IMG/VR virus record: IMGVR_UViG_3300050821_003341
Location: 1-40,824 of that record
DNA length: 40,824 bases
From: a virus
Reading direction: 5' to 3' (one strand)
Shown here: piece after piece, positions 16,040-39,623 of the stretch
How positions within the stretch are numbered: the first letter of the stretch is position 1
Layout: each line of letters starts with the position of its first letter
The notes under the pieces: generated by a model
Databases searched by the model: none
What the model was told of the DNA's origin: nothing
Seen by the model: only the letters and a program-made list of their open reading frames with translations
Program-made: the position numbers and the translations under genes

Positions 16040-17434
16040 TTACTGAATAGTCGTGCTATCACCGACTGCTATGATCGCGACCGTATCGTCTGAGTTACTA
16101 ATCGCTACCGTATCCTCGACGCCGGTAATCGATAGACTGTCTTCGACACTGGTAATGGTGAGAGTGTCAGGAGTCGATGTGTTAGTGATGCTTACGGAAT
16201 CTTCAACTACGCTGATTTTCACTGTGTCTTCGACCGCTTGGATCGTAATGTCGTCGTGTGGTATGACGTTATGGATAATCCGAGCTGTTACTAACTGAGC
16301 GACACCGGTAAGAGTTAGGGTCGCCGCTAACTGATTGATAGAAACATTATTCAAGATAGCCAGCGTTTGAGTACGACCAGTGAAGGTTAGCGTTGCGGCA
16401 GATTGGGCAATAGTGGCGTTCACGATAAGAGCAACCGCTTGCGTATTGCCAGTAAAAGTCAAAGTAGCGTGGGTCTGGGTAATACTGGCGTCTTGGATAG
16501 AAGCAACGGCTTGTGTGCCACCACTGAATGTCAGTGTGACTGCTGCCTGAGCGACCTGAACATCTTGAACAGTAGCAACTGTCTGGGTATTACCGGTAAG
16601 CGTCAGGGTGGCGTGTGCCTGAGTGATTGCGACATTATTCACCGTGGCGATAGTTTGGGTGCCGCCCGTAAGCGTCAGGGTGGCGGCAGATTGGGCAATA
16701 GTGGTATTTATCTTCGCTGTTTGTGTATTACCTGTGAAGGTAAGAGTTGCGGCAGATTGCGTGATTGCTACGTTGTTAATTGTTGCAAACGCTTGTGTGC
16801 CACCGGTAAGGGTGAGAGTAGCGGCTACTTGAGTAACAGAAGCATTAACACCACTACTAGCAGCGAGAAGTTCAACGGTGTAACAACCCCAACCGCTAGA
16901 AGTTCCACCAACTGATTCCGTCGTCAGTGACCAAGAGGAGACGCCACCATTCGTATCATGAACACCAACCTCACCTGTTGTTATCTGGCTATCTCGATTG
17001 GTCATTCCTGTTGGTGCTACGTCGATAGTTGTATTCGTGGAACGATGACCACCTAATCCAGCCACCCAAGAGCTACCATCCGTAACACTCATCGTTAATG
17101 CACCATAGCTCACAGTCGTACCGGTATTAGTAACCACAGCATGACCGCCAACGGGAGTAGTATTATTAACACCTCTATAAACTTCAAATACCGTATTCGT
17201 GGCATTCGTAAAAGTACCACTAACAAGCGATGTTCCAGTGGCTATTTGATAAGCACAAAGGCTACCAGCCGAGTTTGTAGTTACTGTATTAAGTGATGTC
17301 CACCCACCAGGAAGAGTTGGTGTAGAGTTCGATCCACTACGAAATGAATAAACGAGAACTACATCACCAGATTGAATACCGGTGATAGTTCCACCGCTAG
17401 CGTTTTTTGCAGTAGTGACAAACGAGATAGCCAT
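16040..17434 (-). CDS. Repeat-built tail fibre / adhesin
   Basis: 464 residues. The N-terminal 190 residues form a beta-rich domain of the kind found at the start of phage fibres or surface adhesins (YSFRSGSNSTPTLPGGWTSL). Next come eight tandem units of 23-24 residues (about 196-385) with the core ITQSAATLTFTGNTQ, alternating GGTQ and GNTQ ends. The last 70 residues switch to a shorter repeat, V(E/D)D(T/S)(V/L)xI about every 8 residues. Such repeats make long beta-fibrous shafts. It is encoded between small structural genes and the internal proteins; a host-contact fibre is the best guess. No catalytic motif seen. Confidence 0.6.
   Translation of the reverse strand: MAISFVTTAKNASGGTITGIQSGDVVLVYSFRSGSNSTPTLPGGWTSLNTVTTNSAGSLCAYQIATGTSLVSGTFTNATNTVFEVYRGVNNTTPVGGHAVVTNTGTTVSYGALTMSVTDGSSWVAGLGGHRSTNTTIDVAPTGMTNRDSQITTGEVGVHDTNGGVSSWSLTTESVGGTSSGWGCYTVELLAASSGVNASVTQVAATLTLTGGTQAFATINNVAITQSAATLTFTGNTQTAKINTTIAQSAATLTLTGGTQTIATVNNVAITQAHATLTLTGNTQTVATVQDVQVAQAAVTLTFSGGTQAVASIQDASITQTHATLTFTGNTQAVALIVNATIAQSAATLTFTGRTQTLAILNNVSINQLAATLTLTGVAQLVTARIIHNVIPHDDITIQAVEDTVKISVVEDSVSITNTSTPDTLTITSVEDSLSITGVEDTVAISNSDDTVAIIAVGDSTTIQ
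16290..16850 (-). repeat. Eight tandem ~70-bp repeats inside the fibre gene
   Basis: The DNA coding the ITQSAATLTFTGNTQ-type units is itself repetitive: blocks such as gccgcaactcttacctt (minus) recur every 69-72 bases. These would allow slippage or recombination to lengthen or shorten the fibre. Confidence 0.7.
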
Positions 17435-17464: not shown

Positions 17465-17917
17465 TTAACTTGAGGCTGCGTTGAATACGCCGTTAGTTGC
17501 ATCCCAGGTAATGACAAATGTGCCACCGCCTGAAGCTGTTTGTGTACCGCCGAAGTCAATGTGAGCGATCGGACTCCCCGAGACGACATATAGTTTGGCG
17601 GCTACGGCTGAGAAGCCAGCACCAGTAGTTGTCCAGGTGGTTGTGCCGGCGCTACCACCACCGAAAGCGCCAGTGATTTTACAAAGTTGAGGGGTTACGG
17701 TTGCGGCGCTAAGCGTTCGAGTGCCGACCGCTCCACCGCCTGTGGTGTAACCGTTCGCTGAGGCAACTTCGGTTCCACTCGTCGTATAAGCTGCATCACC
17801 GTGTGTGAAGGTTGATGCGCTAAACAACGCACAGTTCACCGTGTCGGCCGTCCAACTGTTCGCCTTACTTAAAAACCCGTTAATGATCGCATCATACAGA
17901 TGTGTAACAACTGCCAT
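17465..17917 (-). CDS. Phage minor structural protein
   Basis: 150 residues. Opens MAVVTHLYDAIINGFLSKANSWTADTVNCALFSAS and ends with IDFGGTQTASGGGTFVITWDATNGVFNA. This is the pattern of a widespread small phage structural family (head decoration, tail or fibre-associated): an N-terminal strand-helix, repeated short strands, then IGYVDFG..Q and a final TITW strand. It lies between the fibre gene and the 74-residue gene. The precise place in the virion is unknown. Confidence 0.6.
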   Translation of the reverse strand: MAVVTHLYDAIINGFLSKANSWTADTVNCALFSASTFTHGDAAYTTSGTEVASANGYTTGGGAVGTRTLSAATVTPQLCKITGAFGGGSAGTTTWTTTGAGFSAVAAKLYVVSGSPIAHIDFGGTQTASGGGTFVITWDATNGVFNAASS

Positions 17918-21265: not shown

Positions 21266-21609
21266 AATTATTCTCCTTCTGTACTGTTGGAGGCCGTACG
21301 GGCCATGCTATTAAAGGTTGCTAACCATGCAGTTTAGAGTCGTGCTAGACCTGGCTTTGGAGTAAGCCGGATCGACTGCCGATTTGGGAAGCAGCCGATC
21401 TAGTTCACTCCAATTGATTCACATCTCTTAACCACGGCTACGCGGCTGGTACGGTAGATAACAAGAGGAAACACCTGTTTGTTTTATAACTATAAAGAGG
21501 GTTGTATGCCGACATTAGTCGTGGATACGAAACGTGAATTGGTAAGGTGCAGAGGCTTTTGACGTAAGCCTGGTGGATCGTCGGGAGTCTCCGCGACGAC
21601 CCAGCAGGG
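21266..21609 (-). ncRNA. Candidate structured RNA D, in the virion operon
   Basis: 344 bases with no credible gene between the 78-residue gene and scaffold. It holds strong long-range helices: TTGGAGT/ACTCCAA (21357-21363 with 21407-21413) enclosing a 10-bp stem (21370-21379 with 21391-21400); a 7-bp stem (21577-21583 with 21594-21600); AGGCTT/AAGCCT (21553-21558 with 21566-21571); and GGTT/AACC (21316-21326). Two of these stems need one G-U pair to be complete, and the pair works only if the minus strand is the RNA, which is the direction of the operon. It could be a separate RNA, or an mRNA leader for scaffold. I match it to no known family. Confidence 0.65.
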
Positions 21610-25080: not shown

Positions 25081-25373
25081 GCTGGCTCCTCGTAATGATC
25101 TAGTCTGTTTAGTTCGATGATGGGTACTAGGACGCGGCTGACTGGTCTGCCGTCTTTGAAGTAGATCGGGATACCATCGATAAGTTCTTTGGAATAACCG
25201 AGCGGTACCTTACCAGTGGGCCAGTTTTTATAGGCATTCGGCGGTTCGACCTGATAAACCTTGGGTCTGCCTCGATGTTTGGCAGCGAAAAGCTGAATGT
25301 CATAAGGCAGGCGCATCTTCTCGTTGAGGATGGGTGAGATGAAAACGCGCGGATCTTTTGTCGGTTCAGACAT
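25077..25373 (-). CDS. Hypothetical late protein (98 residues)
   Basis: 98 residues with PKVYQVEPPNAYKNWPTGKVPLGYSKE and a strand-rich end (IPIYFKDGRPVSRVLVPIIEL). The start codon overlaps the terminase stop by 8 bases, so its expression follows TerL. Not recognised. Confidence 0.55.
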   Translation of the reverse strand: MSEPTKDPRVFISPILNEKMRLPYDIQLFAAKHRGRPKVYQVEPPNAYKNWPTGKVPLGYSKELIDGIPIYFKDGRPVSRVLVPIIELNRLDHYEEPA

Positions 25374-26847
25374 GGAAGTTACTCCGTTTCGGACGATCCC
25401 TTGGAGTCATTTGAGCCGGTGTATGTGCGATGTGTGTCTGGTACGCCAGTGAGTCACTCGCATCGTCGTTCGTTGCTTTGGGGAAGAGTGCCAGTTCTTC
25501 TTCGAGGTCAGTACATTGGTTGATTCCACCTTGACTGAGGTGGAAGATCGTACCTGCCGCATAACGCGGTACCAACGCTTCGATCCTCAGTTCTTTTTGA
25601 ACGCCACCATGCTTGACCAGGTCGACCGACGGATAGACTCCGCGCTTACGTTGCTCCTCATGAATCGAGACCATCAGGCCTTGGGTGAACTGGTTGTCTT
25701 CCAGGGCAATCTTATGTAAGTGATACCGCTGCCAATTAGTGAAGAGCAGATCGATCAAGTCTTTGGCGCTGAGTTTCTGACGGTAGGTAATGATGTTCCA
25801 GTTGCCTTCTTTGTCGACGAAGTTGATAGTGATGCCGATGTAGTCATTACCGAGTTTGATGTCATCTTTGCCACGTGGGTCGATGGTCATGACGTTGTAG
25901 GTTGCCCAGGTCGAAACCTCTTCGTAGGTGCGATACCGGAACCACTCTGATTTGAACTTACGGTTTTCCTCATCGACTGGGTACTGCTGATACAGCGCCG
26001 AAAACTCATACGGCCCAACGGCGGTCTTGATCGTCCTCAGTCTGTCGATCGGGAACTTGTTAGGCCACAGCGCATCACCTTCCTTGCGGTACTTGTCATC
26101 TTTGGTGGCAATCGCTTTGAACTTAATAATCTCCCACTTGTCGTATGGTTCACCGTTCTTCTTGGCATCTTCGGCATCTTTGAGAACGCGGCCGGCCAAA
26201 TCGTCGTCATGCCAACGGGTCAGGATGAAGATGATCATCGAGTTACCCTCTTGGCGTGTGTAGAAAGTGGACTGGAACCACTTGTGGCGAGAATCGCGGA
26301 TGACGGGACTGTCGGCTTCTTCCCGGTTCTTAAACGGGTCGTCGACGATACCTATCTTGAAACCACGACCGGTCAAAGCACCACCAACACCAACGGCTGA
26401 GTAGCCACCCTTTTTGTTCGTCATCCATCTGCCCTTGGCCTTCGCATCAGCACGGAGACGAGTGTTGAACATCAATGCGTAGCGATCTGACTGCATGATG
26501 TCTCGGGTTGATTGGCCGAAGTCAGTGGCCAGCGTGTCGGAGTAGGAAGACACCATAATCGGGGTCGTTGGATCTTTGCCCAGTACCCAGGAGGGAAACT
26601 TCTGCGTGGCCTGGTCGGACTTGCCGTGACGCGGTGGCATGAAGATCATGAGTCGTACGCTCTCACCTCGTTGCAGCCGCTTGTATCCGTCCTCAAGCCT
26701 CTGCGCGATGACCTTGTGAAACCACTCCAATTTGTAGTTGGGATCAATAGCAATGCAGTACTCAGCGAATGAGCCCTGCTGCGCGATTTCCCTAAGAATC
26801 AGCGCGGCTTGCTCGTGCTCGGATAAGTTGTTCAGCTTGTTCGCCAC
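25366..26847 (-). CDS. terL: Terminase large subunit (DNA-packaging motor and nuclease)
   Basis: 493 residues from the GTG at 26847. This start has GAGGAG 7 bases upstream; a TTG at 26865 would add 6 residues. Domains: packaging ATPase with Walker A PPRHGKS (71-77) and a coupling-type LTRWHDDDL segment, then a nuclease domain with MTIDPRGKDD (first Asp), a EDNQFTQG region and a final DASDSLAYQT (last Asp), the RNase H-like metal site. Family role: translocates DNA into the procapsid and cuts concatemers. The gene overlaps the small subunit. Confidence 0.9.
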   Translation of the reverse strand: MANKLNNLSEHEQAALILREIAQQGSFAEYCIAIDPNYKLEWFHKVIAQRLEDGYKRLQRGESVRLMIFMPPRHGKSDQATQKFPSWVLGKDPTTPIMVSSYSDTLATDFGQSTRDIMQSDRYALMFNTRLRADAKAKGRWMTNKKGGYSAVGVGGALTGRGFKIGIVDDPFKNREEADSPVIRDSRHKWFQSTFYTRQEGNSMIIFILTRWHDDDLAGRVLKDAEDAKKNGEPYDKWEIIKFKAIATKDDKYRKEGDALWPNKFPIDRLRTIKTAVGPYEFSALYQQYPVDEENRKFKSEWFRYRTYEEVSTWATYNVMTIDPRGKDDIKLGNDYIGITINFVDKEGNWNIITYRQKLSAKDLIDLLFTNWQRYHLHKIALEDNQFTQGLMVSIHEEQRKRGVYPSVDLVKHGGVQKELRIEALVPRYAAGTIFHLSQGGINQCTDLEEELALFPKATNDDASDSLAYQTHIAHTPAQMTPRDRPKRSNFHV

Positions 26848-27352
26848 TGATTTGAATCTCCTCAATGCTTCCAGTTAGTTCAGTTTCGATCTTGTCGCGC
26901 CAGATATGACTCCTACGGTTCTTAAGCCAGAATTGGGCAGCTCGCGCATCTGGTGGTTCAACCTTGAGTGTCGGGATAACTTCCACGTGTTCAATCTCGC
27001 TGACTCGCTTGCCGTTTTCGTACTGCACCTCTTTAACCTTGATCGCTTGCTGTTCGATGTACTCAAAACCGGTGGCACGTTTGTTGAGACTGGCGGCGAT
27101 TTCCATGTCAGCGATTTCTTTACCGTCCCTTATGGACTGTAAAAATTCAGGAACGTTGGTCTTCCAGTTGTTGATCGTCTTCTCGACAACACCGAAGAAC
27201 GCAGCCATTTCCTTATCTGTTGCGCCGAGTAGGCAAAGCTTGCGAGCTTGTTCGGCATACTCATCTTTATAGTCTGTCGGGCGCCCTGGACCTTTTGGAG
27301 GCTCTGGCTTGGGCTCGGGAACCCTCAGAACATCGATACTTTTTTTGGCCAT
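26792..27352 (-). CDS. terS: Terminase small subunit (DNA recognition)
   Basis: 186 residues. A helix-turn-helix is recognisable at about 38-75: ARKLCLLGATDKEMAAFFGVVEKTINNWKTNVPEFLQSIRDGK, the classic small-terminase pattern. The remainder is helical (oligomerisation) with an unusual VKEVQYENGKRVSEIEHVEVIPTLKVEPPD segment. It binds packaging sites and recruits TerL. It overlaps TerL by 56 bases. Confidence 0.8.
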   Translation of the reverse strand: MAKKSIDVLRVPEPKPEPPKGPGRPTDYKDEYAEQARKLCLLGATDKEMAAFFGVVEKTINNWKTNVPEFLQSIRDGKEIADMEIAASLNKRATGFEYIEQQAIKVKEVQYENGKRVSEIEHVEVIPTLKVEPPDARAAQFWLKNRRSHIWRDKIETELTGSIEEIQISGEQAEQLIRARASRADS

Positions 27353-27654: not shown

Positions 27655-27725
27655 ATGTCTTTCTAGTGTAGCAACCGGCGTTAAAAGAAAGCACCTATGT
27701 TGTCTATTCCGCTACGCTATAGTCT

Positions 27726-27759
27726 TGTTTATATTACTAATACGAGCTATATTAGTAAT
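27726..27759 (+). promoter_or_regulatory. Promoter with 27-bp operator, site 1
   Basis: An inverted repeat ATTACTAAT-N9-ATTAGTAAT (27733-27759, arms perfect) overlaps a plus-strand promoter TTGTTT-N17-TATATT, with the -10 inside the right arm. It stands between the start of the late operon (leftward) and the two small plus-strand genes. The same 27-bp pattern occurs at 29649-29675 and 32601-32627. Confidence 0.7.
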
Positions 27760-27794
27760 GTAAACGTTAATAGCGAAAGGATCTTAAAAAAGCT

Positions 27795-28330: not shown

Positions 28331-28602
28331 GATTTTTCTCCTGTTAGGCCAGCACGTTGCCGTATCTGTTTCTTAGCCGTGTTATAACCCTCGATGTAAT
28401 CAATAGCTGACTGCAAGCCAGTGGTTGATGGTGGCATAGTATCGCCGATGATTCGGTCAATCTCTTTAAGGATGGCGGCTTCTAAGTTATTAAATGCTTC
28501 AATGCCACCCTCACGACCACGAACTACAGATTTACCAATAAGCTCACCCTCGAACTCTTTTAGCACCTTTTTCAGCCAGTCTTTGTCTGTGGGAGTTGTC
28601 AT
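28327..28602 (-). CDS. Hypothetical early protein (91 residues)
   Basis: Helical and charged, with LKKVLKEFEGELIGKSVVRGREGGIEAFNNLEAAILKEIDRIIG and a Tyr-rich C-terminus. Coupled by ATGA overlaps to the genes on both sides. Not recognised. Confidence 0.6.
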   Translation of the reverse strand: MTTPTDKDWLKKVLKEFEGELIGKSVVRGREGGIEAFNNLEAAILKEIDRIIGDTMPPSTTGLQSAIDYIEGYNTAKKQIRQRAGLTGEKS

Positions 28603-29483: not shown

Positions 29484-29644
29484 GCCAGCTTCTCCGCTTT
29501 CCGCGCAAGGTAAGCAGCGTTTTTGTGTGAATCGGAGCAGTACATGTGACGCTTACCGCCATTGTACGAAAAGTACTTCTTACATGGTTGGTAATAACAT
29601 TGAAGGTATAGGGGTGGTAGAGTTGGTTTCTTCGATAAGCTCAT
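29480..29644 (-). CDS. 54-residue zinc-finger-like protein, first of the early chain
   Basis: CYYQPCKKYFSYNGGKRHMYCSDSHKNAAYLARKA gives a C-x4-C...C-x2-H treble-clef-like finger, similar to FCS/MYM fingers. I start at 29644 because the 27-bp operator ends 5 bases upstream; the -10 TATATT then gives a leader of only about 3 bases, so the mRNA is near leaderless. A start at 29716 in the same frame would translate the operator and is less likely. It opens a coupled chain of seven genes down to 28160. Confidence 0.6.
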   Translation of the reverse strand: MSLSKKPTLPPLYLQCYYQPCKKYFSYNGGKRHMYCSDSHKNAAYLARKAEKLA

Positions 29645-29648
29645 ATCT

Positions 29649-29675
29649 ATTACTAATATAGGCTGTGTTAGTAAT
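29649..29675 (-). promoter_or_regulatory. Promoter with 27-bp operator, site 2
   Basis: ATTACTAAT-N9-GTTAGTAAT: 8 of 9 arm pairs hold. Read on the minus strand the TATATT -10 lies in the right arm as at site 1. It drives the early small-gene chain. The -35 region (TGGATT) is weak, so an activator may help. Confidence 0.65.
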
Positions 29676-29702
29676 TTAATCCATATATCGGGCGTTGTGG
29701 AA

Positions 29703-31474: not shown

Positions 31475-31849
31475 TTATACGCTAATCTGGTCTGATTCAC
31501 CCATCGCGCGTTTCAGTAGCCAACCGAAAAGGTTCTTTGGTTTCTGACCCGATCGAGCCATCTTAGCAATAGCTTCATAACGGGATTCTCCTAGTGTTTT
31601 ATACGCTTTACAGTACCAGTCGGTAAGATCATCGTTTGGTTCGGTCTTCGCCAGGTCTCCGGCTATGTGTAACGCTCTTTCCTTGATAACCGAACTAGTT
31701 GAACTAGTTTTATTTAATTTCTTTCGACTAGTTAAACTAGTTGAACTAGTTTTATTTAATTTCTTTCGACTAGTTAAACTAGTTGAACTAGTTACCGTGT
31801 ACTCCTGTTCCAACAACTCTTTTCTCGAAATCATGTTGACAATCTCCAT
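31475..31849 (-). CDS. Putative replication initiation-type protein with internal repeats
   Basis: 124 residues from the ATG at 31849, which has a GAGG Shine-Dalgarno 7 bases upstream; ATG 31861 or TTG 31882 would extend it. The middle is a run of Ser/Thr/Lys repeats, with SLTSRKKLNKTSST occurring twice, coded by the 42-bp DNA repeats listed below. The end (DLTDWYCKAYKTLGESRYEAIAKMARSGQKPKNLFGWLLKRAMG) resembles the C-terminal helices of phage replication or DnaD-like proteins. Repeats inside a coding sequence beside DnaA-box-like DNA recall the lambda O arrangement, where the origin lies in the initiator gene. The identity is inference; the repeats are seen. Confidence 0.45.
   Translation of the reverse strand: MEIVNMISRKELLEQEYTVTSSTSLTSRKKLNKTSSTSLTSRKKLNKTSSTSSVIKERALHIAGDLAKTEPNDDLTDWYCKAYKTLGESRYEAIAKMARSGQKPKNLFGWLLKRAMGESDQISV
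31692..31793. repeat. Two perfect 42-bp direct repeats with ACTAGT palindromes (iteron-like)
   Basis: A 42-bp unit (31700-31741 and 31742-31783, identical) continues as a 10-base partial copy (31784-31793) and is preceded by another partial. Each unit holds three ACTAGT palindromes, giving eight in about 100 bases. The spacing is close to 10 or 8 bases in places, about one helical turn. Spacers are AT-rich. Confidence 0.85.
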
Positions 31850-31919
31850 CAATACCCTCATAATGCTAGGCGGGTAGTTCAAAGGGAATCTTTAAACTAA
31901 CGGCTCTACATCTGCTAGG

Positions 31920-32125
31920 GTCGTTTTATTTTGTGAATATTTTTTGGGATAACAAGCCGTACGCTCTCAGTCGTTCCCGTTTGCCGGTCTTTTTGTTTGG
32001 GTATTCAAAGGCTGGCTATATCAATTTATCATGCTGTCATCATTGTGACAAACAGCCTGTGGATAACTTTCGCAAATATGCGGATAACTCGTCTAATAAC
32101 GGGGAAATATTGCAATCCACAACGT
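31920..32125. other. Candidate replication origin (DnaA-box-like sites)
   Basis: About 200 bases without a credible gene. A perfect DnaA box complement TGTGGATAA (32059-32067) is followed 20 bases later by TGCGGATAA (32079-32087); CAATCCACA (32113-32121) is an opposite-strand near match, and TTGGGATAA (31944-31952) a weaker one. AT-rich stretches (for example 31924-31946) could unwind. With the iteron-like repeats next door this is a reasonable phage or phage-plasmid origin. Confidence 0.45.
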
Positions 32126-32145
32126 TATACTTGTAGATATTAAAT

Positions 32146-32166
32146 AGGACGCCTCGGAGGCGTCCT
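32146..32166. terminator. Hairpin terminator after RNA A
   Basis: AGGACGCC/GGCGTCCT arms (8-9 bp, 4-base loop). On the minus strand it is followed by ATTTAATA, an acceptable terminator tail, and directly ends the RNA A region. Confidence 0.6.
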
Positions 32167-32168
32167 TA

Positions 32169-32398
32169 GCAAACTCGATAACTCGCATGGTGCTAGTAGG
32201 GGCCTCATACTTTTGACAAGCAGCCTAGACGGTCATCGGAACGCCCTCTCGTCCATGGGTGCTACTAGCTGACTGTATAAGGTGCGGTTCGGGTGAGTGT
32301 CTTGCGGTTCGGTACCAACCATTGCAAGGCTTGACCACGCAGGCTTTGAACTTATACAGCCATGTAAGCTATCGAGTTCAGTGGCACATTGCCAGCGG
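32169..32398 (-). ncRNA. Candidate structured RNA A, following the 46-residue ORF
   Basis: On the minus strand a three-way arrangement is visible. P1: AACTCGATA/TATCGAGTT (32370-32378 with 32172-32180), with a second pairing CATGG/CCATG inside. P2: a perfect 9-bp CTGTATAAG/CTTATACAG (32351-32359 with 32273-32281) enclosing a further hairpin. P3: GCTAGTAG/CTACTAGC (32262-32269 with 32192-32199). The blocks CTTATACAGTCA, GCTAGTAG and CTACTAGCAC recur in RNA B at 36250-36474. It is followed by a terminator. Known families (group I intron, tmRNA, 6S, RNase P) do not fit the conserved blocks that I can see. Confidence 0.65.
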
Positions 32399-32579
32399 TT
32401 AAACCGCCGCTAGCTTTTTCTCACATTCTAAGCAAATTTCACTTGCTCCTGTAGGTTCAAATTCGGTGTCGAGCTTTTCTTTACCACATTCGATACAGAT
32501 ATAGGTAAATTCGCCTTCTTTGTCATGTGTGATGTGCATTGTCATATCTCCTGTTTAATAACTGACAATGTGCCACTGA
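32378..32579. repeat. Inverted repeat bracketing the 46-residue ORF
   Basis: TCAGTGGCACATTG (32378-32391) and its complement CAATGTGCCACTGA (32566-32579), 14 bp perfect; with flanks the stem on the minus-strand RNA reaches 16 bp with one wobble T-G pair. It encloses the whole gene 32399-32539. Confidence 0.8.
32399..32539 (-). CDS. 46-residue zinc-ribbon protein inside the RNA A locus
   Basis: MHITHDKEGEFTYICIECGKEKLDTEFEP and on to EICLECEKKLAAV: Cys15-x2-Cys18 and Cys36-x2-Cys39, a minimal zinc ribbon. The start at 32539 is chosen over 32545 because AGGAG lies 8 bases before it. It is bracketed by the 14-bp inverted repeat and transcribed from the site 3 promoter into RNA A. Similar zinc ribbons bind nucleic acids, so it could act on the RNA that follows (inference). 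Confidence 0.65.
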   Translation of the reverse strand: MHITHDKEGEFTYICIECGKEKLDTEFEPTGASEICLECEKKLAAV

Positions 32580-32600
32580 GTTGTTAATGTCCCTTGTTAC

Positions 32601-32627
32601 ATTACTAATATAGCCTATATAAGTAAT
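32601..32627 (-). promoter_or_regulatory. Promoter with 27-bp operator, site 3
   Basis: ATTACTAAT-N9-ATAAGTAAT: 7 of 9 arm pairs hold, same length as sites 1 and 2. On the minus strand a TATATT -10 sits in the right arm. It would transcribe the 46-residue ORF and RNA A. Confidence 0.6.
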
Positions 32628-32640
32628 ACATAAAAGACCC

Positions 32641-33465
32641 TTATTGCTGTAGAATATGCAACACGTCTGCTAACTTCGCGACTTCAAGCACTGTGGCCGG
32701 CAAGTCTTTTAGGTATCTCATCCAATACCGTAGCTCTGCCGCGCGTTCGTCGCGTGTGACCAGGTAGAGCGTTGTCGGGTATATCGGCAACGGATAGTCG
32801 TTTCGGGTTTCATACGCGAGCTTGTACGCGGTCAGTTTCTCGGTCATCTGCTTTTTGTGTTCCGTGCCGAGATCGACTTCTATCCAGCGCGGATGCCGGA
32901 TTGTTTCGCCGTCACGTGACGTAACCACGTCAATGTAAAGGTCTGGCTCTAAGTGGATGCCACCGAAGTCAATGTGGCAGTCGGGTTCGGTTGCCCAGTT
33001 CAGCAGCTTTATCTCACCGCGCCTATCGGCCTCGAACAGTTCCACATACACGTCAGCGATGGCCAGGGCGTGATAATCAACCACGGTCGAGTGACCACGC
33101 CGTCCGCTAAAGATTTTCCGGCCGAGCGTGCCGAGCTGGTAGACGTACATCTGACTACCACCACGAGCGCCGCCAGGAAGGCGTTGATTGACCCGTGCCA
33201 GTAGTTTGTTATTCAGCAGTCTATCTATCGCCTTACGTTGAGGGTTACCGTCTTTGCCTGGGTAGACTAGCCGCTTAATGTGGTTGGTTGTTAGGTGTTT
33301 GAACCTCCCCACCAGCGTCACGATGAGCTGGTCAGTGGCGGACAGTTGCATGTCAGTAGTGTAGACGTACTGAGCGCGTGCCGTGGCGACGACGTTCATG
33401 CTGGTCAGCGCCTGTTTACCGACGCACCGATGGGCGTGGTTGATGTCTGGTTGATGTATTCCCAT
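32641..33465 (-). CDS. Replication-relaxation family protein
   Basis: 274 residues. The first 40 residues may be leader; MQLSATDQLIVTLVGRFKHLTTNHIKRLVYP (from about 40) is a winged-helix start typical of replication-relaxation proteins, then LARVNQRLPGG.RGGSQMYVYQLGTLGRK and HALAIADVYVEL...PDCHIDFGGIHLEPDLYIDV...RWIEVDLGTEHKKQMTEKLTAYKLAYE. This long pattern is that of the Replic_Relax family (plasmid relaxation/replication). The start is uncertain: Met22 or Met39 are possible. Its promoter holds the GAAC-N9-GTTC operator also present at lsr2. Confidence 0.75.
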   Translation of the reverse strand: MGIHQPDINHAHRCVGKQALTSMNVVATARAQYVYTTDMQLSATDQLIVTLVGRFKHLTTNHIKRLVYPGKDGNPQRKAIDRLLNNKLLARVNQRLPGGARGGSQMYVYQLGTLGRKIFSGRRGHSTVVDYHALAIADVYVELFEADRRGEIKLLNWATEPDCHIDFGGIHLEPDLYIDVVTSRDGETIRHPRWIEVDLGTEHKKQMTEKLTAYKLAYETRNDYPLPIYPTTLYLVTRDERAAELRYWMRYLKDLPATVLEVAKLADVLHILQQ

Positions 33466-33517
33466 TTGAAACGCCCTTTAACAGATTTGGGCGCTTTTGT
33501 CCATACCCCACGACAAC

Positions 33518-33555
33518 TGAACACTATATGTGTTCACCAGTTCGCGAAATGTCAA
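33518..33555 (-). promoter_or_regulatory. Operator and promoter of the replication-relaxation gene
   Basis: A perfect 19-bp palindrome TGAACAC-TATAT-GTGTTCA (33518-33536) lies over the -10 region; TTGACA (33550-33555) is a perfect -35 on the minus strand. The spacing is 17 to CACATA or 19 to CATATA. Confidence 0.65.
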
Positions 33556-33584
33556 TATTGCAAATGATTTTGGCGTGACTAATA
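33556..33584 (+). promoter_or_regulatory. Rightward promoter candidate
   Basis: TTGCAA and AATAAT with 17 bases between them on the plus strand, directly before the 58-residue ORF. It is back to back with the replication-relaxation promoter. Confidence 0.4.
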
Positions 33585-33605
33585 ATGAGGTCGGACACGA
33601 ATGAT

Positions 33606-33782
33606 ATGGATATTGGAAGCGGACAACTCGACTACGAACAGTCGAAAACCGACGAAGAGCGTATCGCAGAAGCGATTCTACGCAATCATCTTAAGATATT
33701 CAAAAGTCTTGTCCTACTCGTTAACAAGTCGGGATTACTAGTGCGGCTCCGTTTTGACGGACGCCACAAGCTTGGTGAGTAG
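33606..33782 (+). CDS. 58-residue hypothetical protein
   Basis: MDIGSGQLDYEQSKTDEERIAEAILRNHLKIFKSLVLLVNKSGLLVRLRFDGRHKLGE: an acidic helical start and a hydrophobic middle. The Shine-Dalgarno is weak. The ORF lies between promoter 33556 and structured RNA C, so its reality depends on that transcript. Not recognised. Confidence 0.4.
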   Translation: MDIGSGQLDYEQSKTDEERIAEAILRNHLKIFKSLVLLVNKSGLLVRLRFDGRHKLGE

Positions 33783-33784
33783 CG

Positions 33785-34075
33785 TCCTGCGACGCGGATA
33801 GCAACCTAAACCCTTGAAAGTGTCATTTCCCTCTTATTAAATGGTTTTACTTGTGGGCATGTTGCGGTCATAAGGTTACGTCGTAGGCCACTGGTCATTA
33901 AGCCCGACCAGTAACGGCAGATTGAAGGGCAGCCAAAAGGGAGACCTGCGGCAGCAGCATTTTTTCGAAGATGCTCCCTATGAAGGCCAGTTCAATCTGC
34001 CACGCCATGATGTAACTTTCAGCCGGAGGGTTCAGTAGATGTTCCCACGACCCTCCGCCCGAGCGTTACAGCTCA
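33785..34075 (+). ncRNA. Candidate structured RNA C, upstream of a small membrane protein
   Basis: About 290 bases without a gene. Long helices: a 10-bp stem GTTACGTCGT/ATGATGTAAC (33875-33884 with 34007-34016, two G-U pairs valid only on the plus strand); a hairpin ACTGGTC/GACCAGT (33890-33896 with 33906-33912); an 11-bp stem GGCAGATTGAA/TTCAATCTGCC (33916-33926 with 33991-34001) enclosing an AGCAT/ATGCT hairpin; and GGAGGGT/ACCCTCC (34025-34031 with 34050-34056). Together they suggest a multi-branched fold. It ends 8 bases before the SD of the 41-residue membrane gene, so a cis-acting leader is as likely as a free RNA. Confidence 0.6.
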
Positions 34076-34083
34076 GGAGGTAT

Positions 34084-34209
34084 ATGAAAAAGATTCTCAA
34101 AGAACCGGAAGATTGGATTTTGGTCAGCGTGCTGGCTGGAGTTGTTCTTATATGGTTGTTCGCTCTAGTTATCATCATCAGGTGGGCGTTCGGGCCTGCG
34201 TATGTATAA
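34084..34209 (+). CDS. 41-residue membrane protein
   Basis: MKKILKEPEDWILVSVLAGVVLIWLFALVIIIRWAFG and a short end: one strong TM helix (about 12-33). CAGGAGG lies 5 bases before the ATG, an ideal Shine-Dalgarno. Its stop overlaps the start of the DUF1064 gene. Possible regulator or exclusion peptide; not recognised. Confidence 0.6.
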   Translation: MKKILKEPEDWILVSVLAGVVLIWLFALVIIIRWAFGPAYV

Positions 34210-34693
34210 GCAGCAGCAAGCCACAGACGCAATGAAATCTGCCGAGTGTCCTGAGTGTCACTCTAAACGACTTCTCTACCGTGCTGGCAAGCTAACCTGC
34301 ACCAACTGCGGCCACGTGATCGGCCAGACGTTCAGCAAGTACGGAGCGAAGCGTAGCGAGTTCAACGGCAAGATATTTGATAGCAAGTTTGAGGCCGGTG
34401 TCGCGGCTGATCTGGAAACCAGGAAGCGCGCCAAAGACATCCGAGATTATGAAACGCAGTACAAGGTACATATCCCCGTCTGCCGTCCTGACGGGACGGT
34501 GGCTTTTACCGTGAACCACAAGGTTGACTTCCGCATCCACCATAATGACGGCTCCTACGAGCTGTACGAGGCTAAGGGCGTTGAAACGACTGATTACAGG
34601 TGGCGGCGACGGTTACTGGAAGAGTTGTGGCTACCGGAGCACTTGGACCACACGTACACGGTCATCAAGCAAAACGCGAGGCGTCAGGTATGA
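34202..34693 (+). CDS. DUF1064-type nuclease with zinc ribbon
   Basis: 163 residues. A zinc ribbon at 16-36 (CPEC...CTNC) precedes SKYGAKRSEFNGKIFDSKFEAGVAADLE, then DYETQYKVHIPV, TVNHKVDFRIHHNDGSYELYEAKGVET and YTVIKQNARR. This is the DUF1064 pattern, a phage restriction-endonuclease-like nuclease thought to act as a Holliday junction resolvase or recombination enzyme. Asp and Glu-x-Lys-like active-site residues (DFR, YEAKG) are seen. The start is uncertain between 34202 and 34232; overlap with the upstream stop favours 34202. Confidence 0.7.
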   Translation: MYKQQQATDAMKSAECPECHSKRLLYRAGKLTCTNCGHVIGQTFSKYGAKRSEFNGKIFDSKFEAGVAADLETRKRAKDIRDYETQYKVHIPVCRPDGTVAFTVNHKVDFRIHHNDGSYELYEAKGVETTDYRWRRRLLEELWLPEHLDHTYTVIKQNARRQV

Positions 34694-35094
34694 AGGTCTG
34701 GCACCTCTACGACAAGGTTTACCGAGCTTGGGTATGTATCGTGGTTTCGTCACGTGATGAGTTTGTCGACTTCATAGATGGATGCGGCTATAAAGACATG
34801 GACTTCGTTCGTGAACTCGTCGGTGGCGGCCAGGGCGCCATGATGCGTATCACTCCTGCCGACAACGAAGTTGGCAACAACTGTGTGGTCGTATGGATGC
34901 AGCAGTGGCGCGCTGCCACGTTGGTTCATGAAATCTCACACCTGACATCACAGATACTTAGTGACTGCCTGGTGCCGGTGAACCACGACAACACCGAGGC
35001 AATCGCCTTTTACTCAGAATTCTGGTGGACGGAAATCAACCGAGCGAAACGGCGATGGCCAGACGGCAATAAGCATTCTGACGTTCAAAAATAG
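34690..35094 (+). CDS. HExxH putative metallopeptidase
   Basis: 134 residues from the ATG at 34690, in an ATGA overlap with the upstream nuclease. LVHEISHLTSQIL carries the HEISH motif (His80, Glu81, His84) with Glu103 in DNTEAIAFYSEFWW as possible third ligand, the gluzincin/ImmA-IrrE style. It could relate to cleavage of repressors or to lysis; no partner helix-turn-helix gene is adjacent. It converges with the zinc-finger gene, overlapping by 10 bases. Confidence 0.6.
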   Translation: MKVWHLYDKVYRAWVCIVVSSRDEFVDFIDGCGYKDMDFVRELVGGGQGAMMRITPADNEVGNNCVVVWMQQWRAATLVHEISHLTSQILSDCLVPVNHDNTEAIAFYSEFWWTEINRAKRRWPDGNKHSDVQK

Positions 35095-35708
35095 GGAGCC
35101 CTAACCGGTGGCCGCTTGCCATCAGCTTCCAGGGCTTTGTGTAGTCGACAGGGTTGTTCATAGTCTCGGCAAGCCTGGCAGTTCCAAGGATCAGTAAAAC
35201 GCTTGTCTTTGAAGTACTCGATAGGTTCGACTACACGTTTGGGTAGTATGAACGCTTTAGTCGGCTTGGCCGGCTGTTCGTGAATCGTGCCGACTTTCGG
35301 CTTGTAGTGGGCGCGTGCATACTCGCGCGCTCGCGCCTTCTTACACTCAGAGTCATAGCAGTATGACACGTCAGGCCGCTTTGCCATAAACGATTTGCCA
35401 CACGCTTCACACGTTTTACTGATGGTTTTAGCCTTGACGGGCGGAAGGATTATTGGCGGTGTTGCTATGACGGTGGGCTTGTCTGTCGGCACGGGCTCTG
35501 ATGTACTTGGCACCTTGTCTGTCCAGTACTGATTACGACACTCCGGAGAACAGAACTGTGAGTTGGAACGCTTCTTAATAAACGGCTTTGCACAGACACC
35601 ACAGTTCGCTGACCTCTCATCTGCTGGCTCAGTAACAGTGACAGGTACGCCGTCGTCTACCTGGACCACGACGCGGCCATCCTCGATTGTAATAACAGTC
35701 TTCATCAT
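35085..35708 (-). CDS. Protein with two treble-clef-like zinc fingers
   Basis: 207 residues. CGVCAKPFIKKRSNSQFCSPECR (about 37-59) and CEACGKSFMAKRPDVSYCYDSECKKAR (about 98-124) are two tandem CxxC...CxxxC fingers of the MYM/FCS kind, separated by a Pro/Thr-rich linker; a third Cys cluster lies near the end (CQACRDYEQPCRLH). Such proteins bind nucleic acids. No start signal is strong. Its neighbour on the left is convergent. Confidence 0.6.
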   Translation of the reverse strand: MMKTVITIEDGRVVVQVDDGVPVTVTEPADERSANCGVCAKPFIKKRSNSQFCSPECRNQYWTDKVPSTSEPVPTDKPTVIATPPIILPPVKAKTISKTCEACGKSFMAKRPDVSYCYDSECKKARAREYARAHYKPKVGTIHEQPAKPTKAFILPKRVVEPIEYFKDKRFTDPWNCQACRDYEQPCRLHKALEADGKRPPVRAPYF

Positions 35709-35734
35709 TGCTACTTAGTTAAGCATAAATTATT

Positions 35735-35763
35735 TGTTCAGTCATGCGATGTGTGGTTAATTA
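35735..35763 (+). promoter_or_regulatory. Promoter candidate of the RNA B locus
   Basis: TTGTTC (35735-35740) and TTAATT, 17 bases apart, upstream of the 143-residue gene. The -10 overlaps the GTGGTTAA arm that can pair with 36252-36259. Confidence 0.4.
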
Positions 35764-35817
35764 GTAGTAAGCACTTTTACATCTACGGCCAAGTTCAGTT
35801 TAGAAAGAAGTTTAGTT

Positions 35818-36249
35818 ATGAAAGAAAAGAATACGGGACCAAGCAAGGTATGGCTGATAAGCCAGGAGCCAAGCGGTCTGGCAAAAGCGGGTGATTACAA
35901 TCGTCCGGTAAAGAAAGAGTTACTACTTGAGTATAAAGATGGCAAAGCCATCTACAACGCTGGCACGGAGCCTGTGACGTTCCCTGTTGGGTATGTTATC
36001 GAGCATGAAGACGGTAGTTCCTGGGACAGTTGGGATGGATTTTCAGTAAAGAACAATCTAGTTGCACGTCCCATCTATGATGGTGTAGACATAAGCCACC
36101 TTGAAGGTGAGCTACTTACCATCGTCGATGCAGCATTTGCTGACAAGGAACAACGCGACTCAATCAAAAGCCTGGTGCGCAACACGCTGTGGGGATTCAA
36201 CCACCGGCAGGAGCAGAAGCTACAGGCGATGTGCGAGAGTATTAAATAA
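35818..36249 (+). CDS. Hypothetical protein inside the RNA B locus (143 residues)
   Basis: Opens MKEKNTGPSKVWLISQEPSG; beta-rich centre (PVTFPVGYVIEHEDGSSWDSWDGFSV) and helical charged end (VDAAFADKEQRDSIKSLVRNTLWGFNHRQEQKLQAMCESI). The Shine-Dalgarno-like GAAAGAAG is 10 bases before the ATG. The gene is bracketed by a perfect 10-bp inverted repeat (35785-35794 with 36258-36267), the same design as the RNA A locus. Not recognised. Confidence 0.6.
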   Translation: MKEKNTGPSKVWLISQEPSGLAKAGDYNRPVKKELLLEYKDGKAIYNAGTEPVTFPVGYVIEHEDGSSWDSWDGFSVKNNLVARPIYDGVDISHLEGELLTIVDAAFADKEQRDSIKSLVRNTLWGFNHRQEQKLQAMCESIK

Positions 36250-36474
36250 AGTTAACCACTTGGCCGTGGTTGCGAGACGTGTTTTAATCGAATTGGCAGT
36301 ATAAGTTGATAGTACAGACTCACACGTCCAAGGCCGCTTATACAGTCAAAGCTAGTAGTGTGAGAAGGCGACTGCAAGGTAGATTCTTATATCGGCATCA
36401 GCAGGATTAGTCCGAGCTACTAGCACACTGGTAACGTGTTTGTACTAGGTTTTACAGGTTGCCAGTATATGAGA
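36250..36474 (+). ncRNA. Candidate structured RNA B, homologue of RNA A
   Basis: It follows the stop of the 143-residue gene directly. GTATAAG/CTTATAC (36299-36305 with 36337-36343) and GCTAGTAG/CTACTAGC (36351-36358 with 36417-36424) are the same two helices as P2 and P3 of RNA A, in the same order, joined by ACAGTCA plus two extra A. GACGTGT/ACACGTC (36276-36282 with 36323-36329) is a local alternative. The loops differ in length and sequence. The P1 stem seen in RNA A is only partly recognisable (TTGGCA and ACTGG). A terminator follows. Confidence 0.65.
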
Positions 36475-36500
36475 AGCCCCCGACTTAACGCCGGGGGCTT
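36475..36500. terminator. Bidirectional terminator
   Basis: AGCCCCCG/CGGGGGCT arms (8 bp) with a 9-base loop and TTTAT on the right. It ends RNA B and also stands at the end of the DUF3846 gene, which converges. Confidence 0.8.
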
Positions 36501-36504
36501 TATC

Positions 36505-36999
36505 TCACGCTGCGATGACCTTCACGTTTTCGACCAGTATCCAGCGCTTCGCGAGCGCCAGGCCGCCGTTGTAGGCATCCACCCAGTTATCGTAGGTGAC
36601 GCCGTTGCCGTTCCAGGTATCGTCGTTGGTGACCTGGACCAGATAGCGGTACTGCTCGGTGTGAAAGAGCAGGTTTACCAGTTCTTCCGGCGCACCCATT
36701 GTCCGACCGGCTTTATCAGCTGGACCGAGCACCAGGACGTCACCGACGATGTAGTCGGCTTCGCGAAACTCGGTTCGGTGGACCCAGAGCATGAGGGTTG
36801 CGCGCCGGTTTAGTTCGAGATCGTGGATCTTGCCCTCCTCATTGCTCCAAAGCGAAGCTTCGGGGCGCAAGAGTTCCGTCATTTCAAACGGACCGCCGAC
36901 GTGCTGTTGGATCGACTTGTAGTCGTCCTGGTCGATGTCAACCAGTTCGATTTCACGCAAACCGTCAGCAGGAATCAGTATCCCCTGGATGGTGGTCAT
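36505..36999 (-). CDS. DUF3846 family protein
   Basis: 164 residues from the ATG at 36999, with GAGAGGA 9 bases upstream; a far upstream in-frame start at 37344 would read through structured RNA E and is rejected. The pattern DYKSIQQHVGGPFEMTELL, SNEEGKIHDLELNRRATLML and IVGDVLVLGPADKAG is that of DUF3846, found widely in phages and mobile elements, function unknown. Confidence 0.65.
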   Translation of the reverse strand: MTTIQGILIPADGLREIELVDIDQDDYKSIQQHVGGPFEMTELLRPEASLWSNEEGKIHDLELNRRATLMLWVHRTEFREADYIVGDVLVLGPADKAGRTMGAPEELVNLLFHTEQYRYLVQVTNDDTWNGNGVTYDNWVDAYNGGLALAKRWILVENVKVIAA

Positions 37000-37273
37000 G
37001 AATTGTCCTCTCGTGAGATGTACTCCACTTACCGGTGTTGGTAGGCGGAGTTGATCCCGCGAGTTCGTGCCGAGGACGCCGTGTCTTTTTGCTTTCCGAT
37101 AGATTGTGGAAGAGCGAGCTTTAGAGGCCAAGTGTTCAAAAGGAGACGAGCTGTTGAAAGGTGGTGGAACTAAGCCAAAAGACACGACGCGCTGGGCGCG
37201 AAGGGTTGTTGACTCCCCCACCCTGGCAGCGTGAGCTAAACCAGGAGTGGGAGAGTCGGTAGAGAGTAATGGG
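37000..37273 (-). ncRNA. Candidate structured RNA E, between two accessory genes
   Basis: About 270 bases without a gene. E1: a 47-base hairpin with GACTC...GAGTC ends (37211-37257). E2: a 13-bp long-range stem (37077-37089 with 37177-37189) with one G-U pair valid only on the minus strand. E3: ACTCC/GGAGT (37022-37026 with 37047-37051) enclosing ACC/GGT. The upstream gene ends 17 bases before E1, and E3 ends just before the SD of DUF3846. As with RNA C it could be a leader or a free RNA. Confidence 0.55.
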
Positions 37274-37603
37274 TTAGGAAGCGGATGACGAGCGGATGAG
37301 CGACGAGCCATTCTGTTTCGGGCTGTATCCGCTGCGCCGCCCACGATTGCTGTCGAAGCCGGCCAGCTTGTCGGTAGGGACCAGCTTTTCGTAGTCGGCT
37401 TTCTGAACGAGCAACGTGGCGACCTGGCCGCTGGGATAGCGGTACTCCAGTTCGACGACGTTGACGACGCCCTTGAGGGCTTTCAGTTCATCGGGTGCGG
37501 CGTCGAAGACCTTGCCGTGAGTCTTATCGACCACAGTAACGGCCTCGTTGTCCGCCAGTTCTACGCCAGAGATATCACTCAGGCGCTTCTGTACAAACCC
37601 CAT
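37274..37603 (-). CDS. Hypothetical protein (109 residues)
   Basis: From the ATG at 37603, with AGGAGT 8 bases upstream. MGFVQKRLSDISGVELADNEAVTVVDKTHGKVFDAAPDELKALKGVVNVVELEYRYP then a Ser/Asn/Arg-rich tail: an alpha/beta domain of about 75 residues and a disordered end. It directly precedes RNA E. A TTGACA lies at 37684-37689, but a matching -10 is weak. Not recognised. Confidence 0.55.
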   Translation of the reverse strand: MGFVQKRLSDISGVELADNEAVTVVDKTHGKVFDAAPDELKALKGVVNVVELEYRYPSGQVATLLVQKADYEKLVPTDKLAGFDSNRGRRSGYSPKQNGSSLIRSSSAS

Positions 37604-37813
37604 GATTACTCCTAATGTTGGAAGGTACGAATTATGGCGATTCCATAACTCAGCGTCCTGCTTTAACATAAGAGACTTAATATGTCAATACTAATATTGC
37701 TTTTTATGAGGCGATATGAGTAAATAGATAAGTAATAAAGTAACCCCCGAGATGTATTCGAGGGTCACATGACTAGATTATAAGCCATATGACTCCATCG
37801 GGAAAGGAGCCAT

Positions 37814-38310: not shown

Positions 38311-39435
38311 ATGAGATCGCAACTCCCACAAGGCATCCGAAAAATTGAGCTCAACCGCCGTAAAGACGGCAGGCCAGTCGTGCGCTACGAGATTCTGACC
38401 GACGTCACTAAGCAAAACGGACAGCGCAAGCGACTTCGCACACGTAAGAATGTCGATGGTCGGCCACTTGCTACCGAGGCTATGGCACGGGCAGAACTGG
38501 CACGTATCCAGAACGATGTTGCCACACACAATTTCGTTGCCAGGCGTCGTGTAACCGTCGAGGAAGCCTGTGAGCAGTGGCTCGGGTCAAAGCACGGACT
38601 CAAGCCGTCCACCCTGCGCTGCTATGAAATGTGGCTCGCTCCCCTACGCCAGGAACTCGGTCACGTCGAGCTTCAACAGTTAGAGAAACACCACATCAAC
38701 ACACTGATAGATGAACTGAAACTAGGAAAGGTGCCAGGCTATAAGTCCTGGGGCGCTGGACCGATCAACGGGATGCTTGGCCGCTTCCATAAACTGATGG
38801 AGGATGCACGGAAACAGGGACACATCCAGCGCAACGTCGTCGAGCTGGTTGATCGGTTGCCTCAAGACAACACAGAACTCAACATTCTCTCTGAGGCCGA
38901 TATGTTCAAAATCCTGGATCATCCAGACAGGGATAGGCACGTTTGGGCGTTGGCTTTATATGGCCTCCGTCGTGGTGAGATGGCCGGCTTACGTTGGGAA
39001 CAGGTTGATTTCACCGCACGCACCCTCTCGATAACCGAAAATCGCGTAACGGTCGGTAAGGACACCTATACGGGCACACCAAAGTCCAAGGCTTCCAAGC
39101 GCATACTGCCGATGCCAGATGAACTGTATGACCTCTTGATTGACGCCCAAGCACGTATTGAGAGTGAGTATGTCGTCTGCGATGAACGCGGTAAGCCGCT
39201 GACTGGCACAACGCTCTCATCACGCTGGACAAGGATGTTGCAACGACTAGAGATTAAACATGTGAGACTCCACGACGCACGTCACTCATGCGCGAGCCTG
39301 CTCCATGCACGAGGAGTACCAGTCGCGACGATTGCCGCCTGGTTAGGCCACGCCTCAAGTGCTTTCACGATGAGCCGATACGTTCACTCGCAGGATGCGG
39401 CGTTAATAGGCGCAGCGCAGAGTTACCGCCAATAG
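38311..39435 (+). CDS. int: Tyrosine recombinase (phage integrase)
   Basis: 374 residues. N-terminal arm-binding domain (1-55), a SAM-like core-binding domain (about 65-170: VEEACEQWLGSKHGLKPSTLRCYEMWL), then the catalytic domain. Active-site residues: Arg220 (GLRRGEMAGLRW), His321 and Arg324 (LHDARHS), His347 (WLGHAS) and Tyr357 (SRYVHS). All are intact. Role: integration and excision at att sites. A dyad-rich region follows directly. Confidence 0.95.
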   Translation: MRSQLPQGIRKIELNRRKDGRPVVRYEILTDVTKQNGQRKRLRTRKNVDGRPLATEAMARAELARIQNDVATHNFVARRRVTVEEACEQWLGSKHGLKPSTLRCYEMWLAPLRQELGHVELQQLEKHHINTLIDELKLGKVPGYKSWGAGPINGMLGRFHKLMEDARKQGHIQRNVVELVDRLPQDNTELNILSEADMFKILDHPDRDRHVWALALYGLRRGEMAGLRWEQVDFTARTLSITENRVTVGKDTYTGTPKSKASKRILPMPDELYDLLIDAQARIESEYVVCDERGKPLTGTTLSSRWTRMLQRLEIKHVRLHDARHSCASLLHARGVPVATIAAWLGHASSAFTMSRYVHSQDAALIGAAQSYRQ

Positions 39436-39623
39436 GAACACTTTTGGGAACAATTAGACGCTATTAGACGATGCGCACCCCTGTTGACCAGCACCGATAG
39501 GACGAATCACACTAAATTTCATATATGAAAACTTAACGGAGGCGGATTAGAACGTGTTGCGCCGCAACATCTTTCGTTAACAGGGGTCTGCCACGCGACG
39601 TGGCTAGGAACACTTTTGGAACA
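39433..39623. other. Attachment-like region (attP/attR candidate)
   Basis: Starts at the integrase stop. Direct repeats TAGGAACACTTTTGGGAACA (39433-39452) and a 19-base near copy (39605-39623) flank a set of dyads: ACCCCTGTT/AACAGGGGT (39477-39485 with 39579-39587), a perfect TTTCATATATGAAA (39517-39530), GTTGC/GCAAC (39556-39568) and CCACG/CGTGG (39591-39603). ATTAGACG occurs twice, 10 bases apart (39453, 39463). These fit arm sites and a core for the adjacent integrase. No matching core was found by eye near the left end. Confidence 0.55.

Follow-up and report, generated by a model that had tools for sequence, protein, structure and literature searches.

Two related tandem-hairpin elements behind small phage genes

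The DNA analyzed here, referred to as the window, is a linear virus record of 40,824 bases from IMG/VR (IMGVR_UViG_3300050821_003341) and represents a temperate tailed phage. A preliminary description had pointed to two related structured RNAs in it, RNA A on the minus strand (32169-32398) and RNA B on the plus strand (36250-36474), each with a small gene upstream and a terminator downstream, and these components are indeed present. Directly 5' of RNA A lies a 46-amino-acid zinc-ribbon open reading frame (ORF), and directly 5' of RNA B lies an ORF of 143 amino acids. Each RNA is followed by a terminator that reads in the module's own direction. The blocks CTTATACAGTCA and GCTAGTAG, with their partner strands, occur in both RNAs, and none of 1,000 shuffles aligned as well as the natural pair (local alignment score, 38.8; shuffled-pair maximum, 30.65). 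On the strength of that alignment, A and B are homologues that have diverged from a single module.

What the two RNAs have in common is all four strands of two adjoining hairpins, P2 and then P3, which can be written together as TGGC[T/A]GTATAAGTT...CTTATACAGTCA(AA)GCTAGTAG...CTACTAGCAC. The order on the minus strand in A is TGGCTGTATAAGTT-(loop)-CTTATACAGTCA-GCTAGTAG-(62 nt)-CTACTAGCAC, and on the plus strand in B it is TGGCAGTATAAGTT-(loop)-CTTATACAGTCA-AA-GCTAGTAG-(58 nt)-CTACTAGCAC. The hairpins adjoin without a gap in A and are 1 to 2 nt apart in B. The P2 loop is about 69 nt long in A versus 31 nt in B, the P3 loop is 62 versus 58 nt, and the P2-P3 core comes to about 174 nt in A and about 134 nt in B. 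The two RNAs had been described as sharing the same helices in the same order, and this holds for P2 and P3. The outer helix P1 is found only in A and the hairpin P4 only in B, so the helix plans agree just for P2-P3.

The stems are conserved far more strictly than the sequence around them. In a loop-trimmed alignment of A and B, used because MAFFT misaligns the pair, 37 of 38 stem columns were identical compared with 43 of 87 other columns (about 49%; Fisher P = 3e-8). Covariation between the two copies had been proposed, and there is none: A and B have the same bases at 18 of the 19 core pairs, the remaining pair is broken in B by an A-A mismatch, and none is compensatory. Since the loops are near-random and no pair is compensated, conservation acts on stem sequence and not on pairing alone. 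This pattern would be expected if the sequence is recognized directly or was homogenized very recently, and a role at the DNA level would also be compatible with it.

Without the terminators, the folding z-scores were modest, at -2.65 for A and -1.46 for B. The whole units folded better than shuffled sequence (-4.3 and -3.4) and better in sense than in antisense (antisense B unit, -1.5). Across all listed helices, the sense reading has 8 G-U pairs versus 2 A-C oppositions, a count that the choice of helices biases toward G-U. A pseudoknot between the P2 loop and a P3 strand, looked for by eye, is possible in B (CUCACA/UGUGAG) and has no counterpart in A.

These observations bear on the view that A and B are nothing but DNA-level repeats, that is, protein-binding inverted repeats, the relic of an inverted duplication, or the outcome of gene conversion, with no structured RNA function. 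The conservation of stem sequence beyond pairing, the modest folding of B, and the placement of A and B as mutual inversions around 4 kb would all fit. However, the blocks that match coincide exactly with the four strands of the two hairpins, and their spacing differs between A and B; hairpins account for this better than a DNA site of fixed spacing or a single crossover core would. We consider the DNA-level explanation improbable.

TABLE 1 Positions of the modules, their genes and stems, and other landmarks in the window
Feature	Position	Strand	Remarks
Terminase large subunit	25366-26865	minus	
Intrinsic terminator of A unit	32146-32166	minus	9-bp stem, then ATTTAAT
RNA A helix P1, 3' strand	32172-32190	minus	
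RNA A helix P3, 3' strand CTACTAGC	32192-32199	minus	62-nt loop
RNA A helix P3, 5' strand GCTAGTAG	32262-32269	minus	
RNA A helix P2, 3' strand CTTATACAGTCA	32270-32281	minus	
RNA A helix P2, 5' strand TGGCTGTATAAG	32351-32362	minus	11 Watson-Crick + 1 G-U; common to B
RNA A helix P1, 5' strand	32360-32378	minus	A only; 16 Watson-Crick + 2 G-U of 19 with 32172-32190
A enclosing stem, 3' arm	32378-32404	minus	Stop codon inside
Zinc-ribbon ORF, 46 amino acids	32399-32539	minus	CxxC..CxxC; 48 amino acids from ATG at 32545; weak match to phrog_34930, E = 3e-5
A enclosing stem, 5' arm	32553-32579	minus	Ends at AGGAG ribosome-binding site
Palindromic promoter/operator-like site TTACTTATATAGGCTATATTAGTAATGTAACA	32597-32638	minus	Before A unit; recurs; putative role
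Replic_Relax replication protein	32641-33465	minus	PF13814; PHROG "replication initiation by nicking"
B enclosing stem, possible 5' arm	35783-35794	plus	12 bp, weak
ORF of 143 amino acids	35818-36249	plus	No recognizable relatives
B enclosing stem, possible 3' arm	36258-36269	plus	Inside local hairpin
RNA B helix P2, 5' strand TTGGCAGTATAAG	36293-36305	plus	11 Watson-Crick + 1 G-U + 1 A-A mismatch
RNA B helix P2, 3' strand CTTATACAGTCAA	36337-36349	plus	
RNA B helix P3, 5' strand GCTAGTAG	36351-36358	plus	
RNA B helix P3, 3' strand CTACTAGC	36417-36424	plus	58-nt loop
RNA B hairpin P4, 5' and 3' strands	36427-36435, 36458-36466	plus	B only; 8 Watson-Crick + 1 G-U
Terminator hairpin of B unit	36474-36500	plus	Then TTTATC; fold and direct reading
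Tyrosine integrase	38311-39435	plus	

Small genes and enclosing stems

Both small genes had been described as enclosed by an inverted repeat, a claim that is borne out in A and is weak in B. Enclosure was tested by counting contiguous pairs against shuffled sequence, the duplex-energy control being confounded by GC-rich ORFs. The 27-nt arms around the A gene are 85% complementary (23 Watson-Crick and 2 G-U pairs), and their 19 contiguous pairs were not equaled in any of 2,000 shuffles and make the longest enclosure among the approximately 61 ORFs of the window. The B stem is 12 bp (CTACGGCCAAGT / ACTTGGCCGTGG), a length reached as well in 99 of 2,000 shuffles (5%), and stems of at least 12 bp surround about 3% of the other ORFs in this phage and its closest relative. 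Its 3' arm can alternatively form a local 6-bp hairpin (36254-36271). With a stem near chance and a competing hairpin, the gene-in-stem plan is well founded for A, whereas for B it is no more than suggestive.

The proteins themselves offered few clues. Scans for relatives of the 143-amino-acid protein came back empty, and an AF2 model made without an alignment was uninformative (pLDDT 52). Relatives of the zinc-ribbon protein (loci L011-L020) have only the zinc-binding stretch in common with it, and a covariance model found no copy of the module in their loci.

Searches for known classes and further copies

No Rfam 15 family matched A, B, or any other part of the window; at E <= 10, there were only chance matches far under threshold. 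The view of the two as structured elements outside Rfam is thus supported. Further homologues with compensatory changes, which the preliminary description had anticipated, were not found. Copy searches covered patterns in IMG/VR, the fetched loci, the whole record of the closest relative (G001, described below), phages, and plasmids; bacterial genomes were not searched with the RNA model. Run over the fetched loci and G001 (194 kb), the covariance model recovered A and B only, with nothing in the 55 kb of G001. Exact and gapped scans of IMG/VR with the P2/P3 pattern gave no true copy. One scan returned nothing, another a single chance match within coding sequence (L004), and a third seven matches (L021-L027) that were likewise due to chance, most of them plainly in coding sequence and none with P3 following. 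A distant blastn search of phages and plasmids returned nothing meaningful; the matches of A to recA genes of Stenotrophomonas phages were 28-nt chance matches.

A tRNA-like reading of P3 was also considered. P3 of A ends in CTACTAGC-A-CCA, yet no T-arm was seen and ARAGORN reported 0 tRNA or tmRNA genes, and the reading was rejected.

Because these searches found no further copy, the proposal of a constant RNA joined to variable cargo has only the pair in this single phage behind it, and the general plan is unsupported. Nothing supports self-cleavage or mobility of the unit, both of which had been suggested. What lies in the window is a real hairpin element, present twice and unclassified, one copy of which comes with a striking stem around its gene. 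That it is a new phage RNA is plausible but unproven, and the claim of an established new RNA class is likewise unproven, though not refuted.

The closest relative and its host

The closest relative of the phage is IMGVR_UViG_2802429070_000003 (locus L005; whole record G001, 54,952 bases), which is about 66 to 80% identical to the window in nucleotide sequence across many blocks. The phage-like part of G001 has about 55% GC and its flanks have 61 to 68% GC. One end, in DNA of 67% GC, carries a tRNA-Leu gene and a gene for a FadD32-like fatty-acyl-AMP ligase. The FadD32-like gene in this GC-rich flank suggests that the host of G001 is an actinobacterium with mycolic acids. G001 is the one relative with flanks, and its flank bears on the host of that relative. 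A host among the Patescibacteria, as initially supposed, is not supported. Scans of GTDB genomes with protein alignments of Replic_Relax and terminase found no relative.

Two further features of the window were noted in passing. A conserved noncoding block around GTGTTGCGCCGCAACAT (window 39531-39587; G001 42565-42621; 79% identical) lies close to the integrase gene, in gene contexts that differ between the two phages, and is a candidate attachment site. Imperfect tandem repeats of about 140 nt (16304-16825) lie within the ORF at 16040-17434, where they give TLTGGTQ repeats and the look of a structural-protein-like repeat gene.

Surroundings of the two units

The palindrome before the A unit belongs to a small family. 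Copies of TTACTAATATAGC..GTATTAGTAA lie at 27722-27763, 29644-29679, and 32597-32638 of the window and at 17540-17590, 21348-21387, and 28504-28553 of G001; they stand before the A unit, before a zinc-finger gene, and before the terminase operon and are probably repressor operators. No clear promoter was seen for the B unit. Beyond the A terminator is a promoter, TTGTCA-17-TAAATT, that is conserved in G001, and beyond the B terminator are convergent minus-strand genes (36505-37669).

In G001, the slot between the Replic_Relax gene and the repeats described below holds a 79-amino-acid ORF, a gap of about 200 nt with unremarkable folding (z-score, -0.46), a 130-amino-acid ORF, and a terminator. 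With other genes and no module in that slot, the A unit appears to occupy an exchangeable position. A 13-bp enclosure of the 79-amino-acid ORF was set aside, as the operator region contains one of its arms and about 3% of ORFs reach such lengths.

DnaA-box-like repeats (TTATCCACA; 32058-32087) and the promoter TTGTCA-17-TAAATTGATATA make up a region conserved between the window (32017-32135) and L005 (11808-11900), a candidate replication origin. Module A lies less than 150 bp from these boxes, which are conserved in G001 with their context, and just beyond the Replic_Relax gene. This placement could mean that A and B act as single-stranded DNA, as strand-specific initiation sites (ssi/sso-like) in the displaced strands of the phage replicon, one per strand. 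Opposite-strand pairs of ssi-like sites are known from RSF1010. However, each module is immediately followed by a terminator in the sense direction, a distance of 4 kb separates B from the boxes, the helices contain G-U pairs in the sense reading, and G001 has both the Replic_Relax gene and the DnaA-box region but lacks the module. Of the explanations weighed here, we give this one the least credence.

Next to the putative origin, and divergent from the ORF at 31475-31882, is a unit that looks like a small RNA gene (window 31836-31925, plus strand; G001 counterpart from 18753, minus strand). Its promoter is close to consensus (TTGACA-17-CATAAT, or TTGACA-16-TATAAT in G001), a terminator hairpin, AACGGCTCTACA..TAGGGTCGTT, comes within about 65 nt of it, and the arrangement is conserved in both phages. 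The adjoining ORF contains tandem self-complementary repeats of AACTAGTTGAACTAGTT (31693-31793) that encode a repeated SSTSLTSRKKLNK stretch; the repeat in its homologue from G001 is another one (EQLSTDTTEL..). Elsewhere, a noncoding stretch of about 300 nt (33783-34085), flanked by small ORFs, forms GC-rich hairpins (GGAGGGTTCAGTAGATGTTCCC..GACCCTCC); the corresponding place in L005 (9500-9660) has a similar hairpin with CAGTAG, though the DNA is unalignable.

The modules might instead function in trans, as a 3' RNA that is released from the transcript or made with it and that titrates an RNA-binding protein of host or phage or else base-pairs to other RNAs, the small ORFs being passengers. 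Phages are known to carry small RNAs that influence regulation in the host. In this phage the module is conserved and the ORFs are unrelated, and the strongly promoted RNA-like unit of about 65 nt next door, given its conservation in G001, makes it appear that the phage uses small RNAs. Against this, no processing site, target, partner, or third copy was found, and the position of both modules directly behind ORFs suggests linkage in cis. A role in trans is unlikely on this evidence, if less so than one confined to DNA.

Comparison with known systems

The put RNA of HK022 binds the zinc-binding domain of the RNA polymerase beta' subunit and suppresses pausing and termination. In phage lambda, nutL and nutR lie on opposite strands, and nutR has a small gene on one side and a terminator on the other; nut works with a phage protein and put works alone. 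HK022 putL and putR are two similar elements, each of two stem-loops, that act on RNA polymerase, and putR lies about 270 nt downstream of the start site (PMC9378689). A and B, too, consist of two adjoining stem-loops with sequence-constrained stems and occur as two related copies in one genome, and like the nut sites they lie on opposite strands. The likeness to put is one of layout, with no sequence match known.

By analogy, A and B could be processive antiterminators, nascent tandem hairpins that modify RNA polymerase, alone or with a phage protein, and so permit read-through of the terminator that follows. Two similar tandem-hairpin RNAs in one phage recall the plan of HK022, the modules occupy opposite strands, each between a small gene and a terminator, A reads toward a long run of minus-strand genes (31.9 to 2.9 kb), and strict conservation of stem sequence would fit contact with the polymerase. 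However, put precedes genes that need read-through, whereas A and B stand at 3' ends with a separate promoter (A) or convergent genes (B) beyond the terminator. Their cores of 174 and 134 nt also exceed the roughly 70 nt of put, and G001 keeps matching terminators without the module. With no need for read-through apparent downstream, and with modules about double the length of put, we rate antitermination second, as an unlikely explanation carrying about the same weight as a role in trans.

Other comparisons are looser. Phage morons are small genes that carry a promoter and a terminator of their own, at sites whose content varies between relatives. The A unit may resemble them, with its operator-like site as putative promoter, its terminator, and the different content of the slot in G001. 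We know of no morons with a common structured RNA at the 3' end. In the dual-function RNA RNAIII/hld, as in the A unit, distant segments of a structured transcript pair around a short ORF; the two have no sequence relation. In integron gene cassettes, a variable ORF is followed by a constant folded attC site, an order that A and B resemble with two hairpins rather than one; no attC core sites (RYYYAAC/GTTRRRY) were seen by eye at the ends of P1, P2, and P3, and no IntI was recognized.

A tentative reading as a cis-acting 3'-end module

Our preference, held tentatively and well short of conviction, is that P2-P3 is a cis-acting module of the 3' untranslated region that ends two short phage transcription units and is recognized sequence specifically by one common partner. 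Each module lies between the stop codon of a short gene and the terminator of what would be that gene's own transcription unit, in a moron-like order of promoter, small ORF, structured 3' end, and terminator. The partner would contact both strands of both stems directly and so hold their sequence, and two separately transcribed messages may in this way come under one posttranscriptional control, of stability or of translation. In the A unit, the stem of 19 to 27 bp would further join the leader, up to the ribosome-binding site, with the stop-codon region, presenting a closed loop that ribosomes must open. Transcription of the modules, folding of the RNA, the binding partner, action in cis, and an effect on the mRNA are all inferred.

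The conservation of all four helix strands supports a cis-acting 3' module, as it is not what one would expect of a lone DNA-binding or crossover site. Also in its favor are the homology of A and B, the near identity of the stem columns, the terminators in the direction of each module, the A enclosing stem, the sense-strand folding of the whole units, the G-U count with its bias, and the operator-like palindrome before the A unit. The different small ORFs and terminator in the G001 slot fit as well, since an exchangeable accessory slot is what this reading would lead one to expect. Several points weigh against it. There are only two copies, both in one genome, and no partner protein has been identified; transcription of the modules is presumed from the sequence. 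Without its terminator, module B folds barely better than shuffled sequence. A terminator hairpin by itself protects a 3' end, so an additional module needs a reason. Moreover, conservation of stems without compensation is equally expected from a DNA-level site or from recent gene conversion.

In a broader form, these would be undescribed phage elements in which sequence-locked tandem hairpins sit on the 3' ends of unrelated small genes, one of them held in a leader-stop stem loop, so that one RNA-binding partner, or else RNA polymerase itself, controls these genes jointly. We regard that as possible but doubtful. Processive antitermination was discovered through paired cis-acting phage RNAs, nut and put. 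Another pair, unrelated to these and located where small-gene units end, would be a testable new case of phage control exerted at the message end, and the strict sequence of the stems makes the partner protein easy to seek by pull-down.

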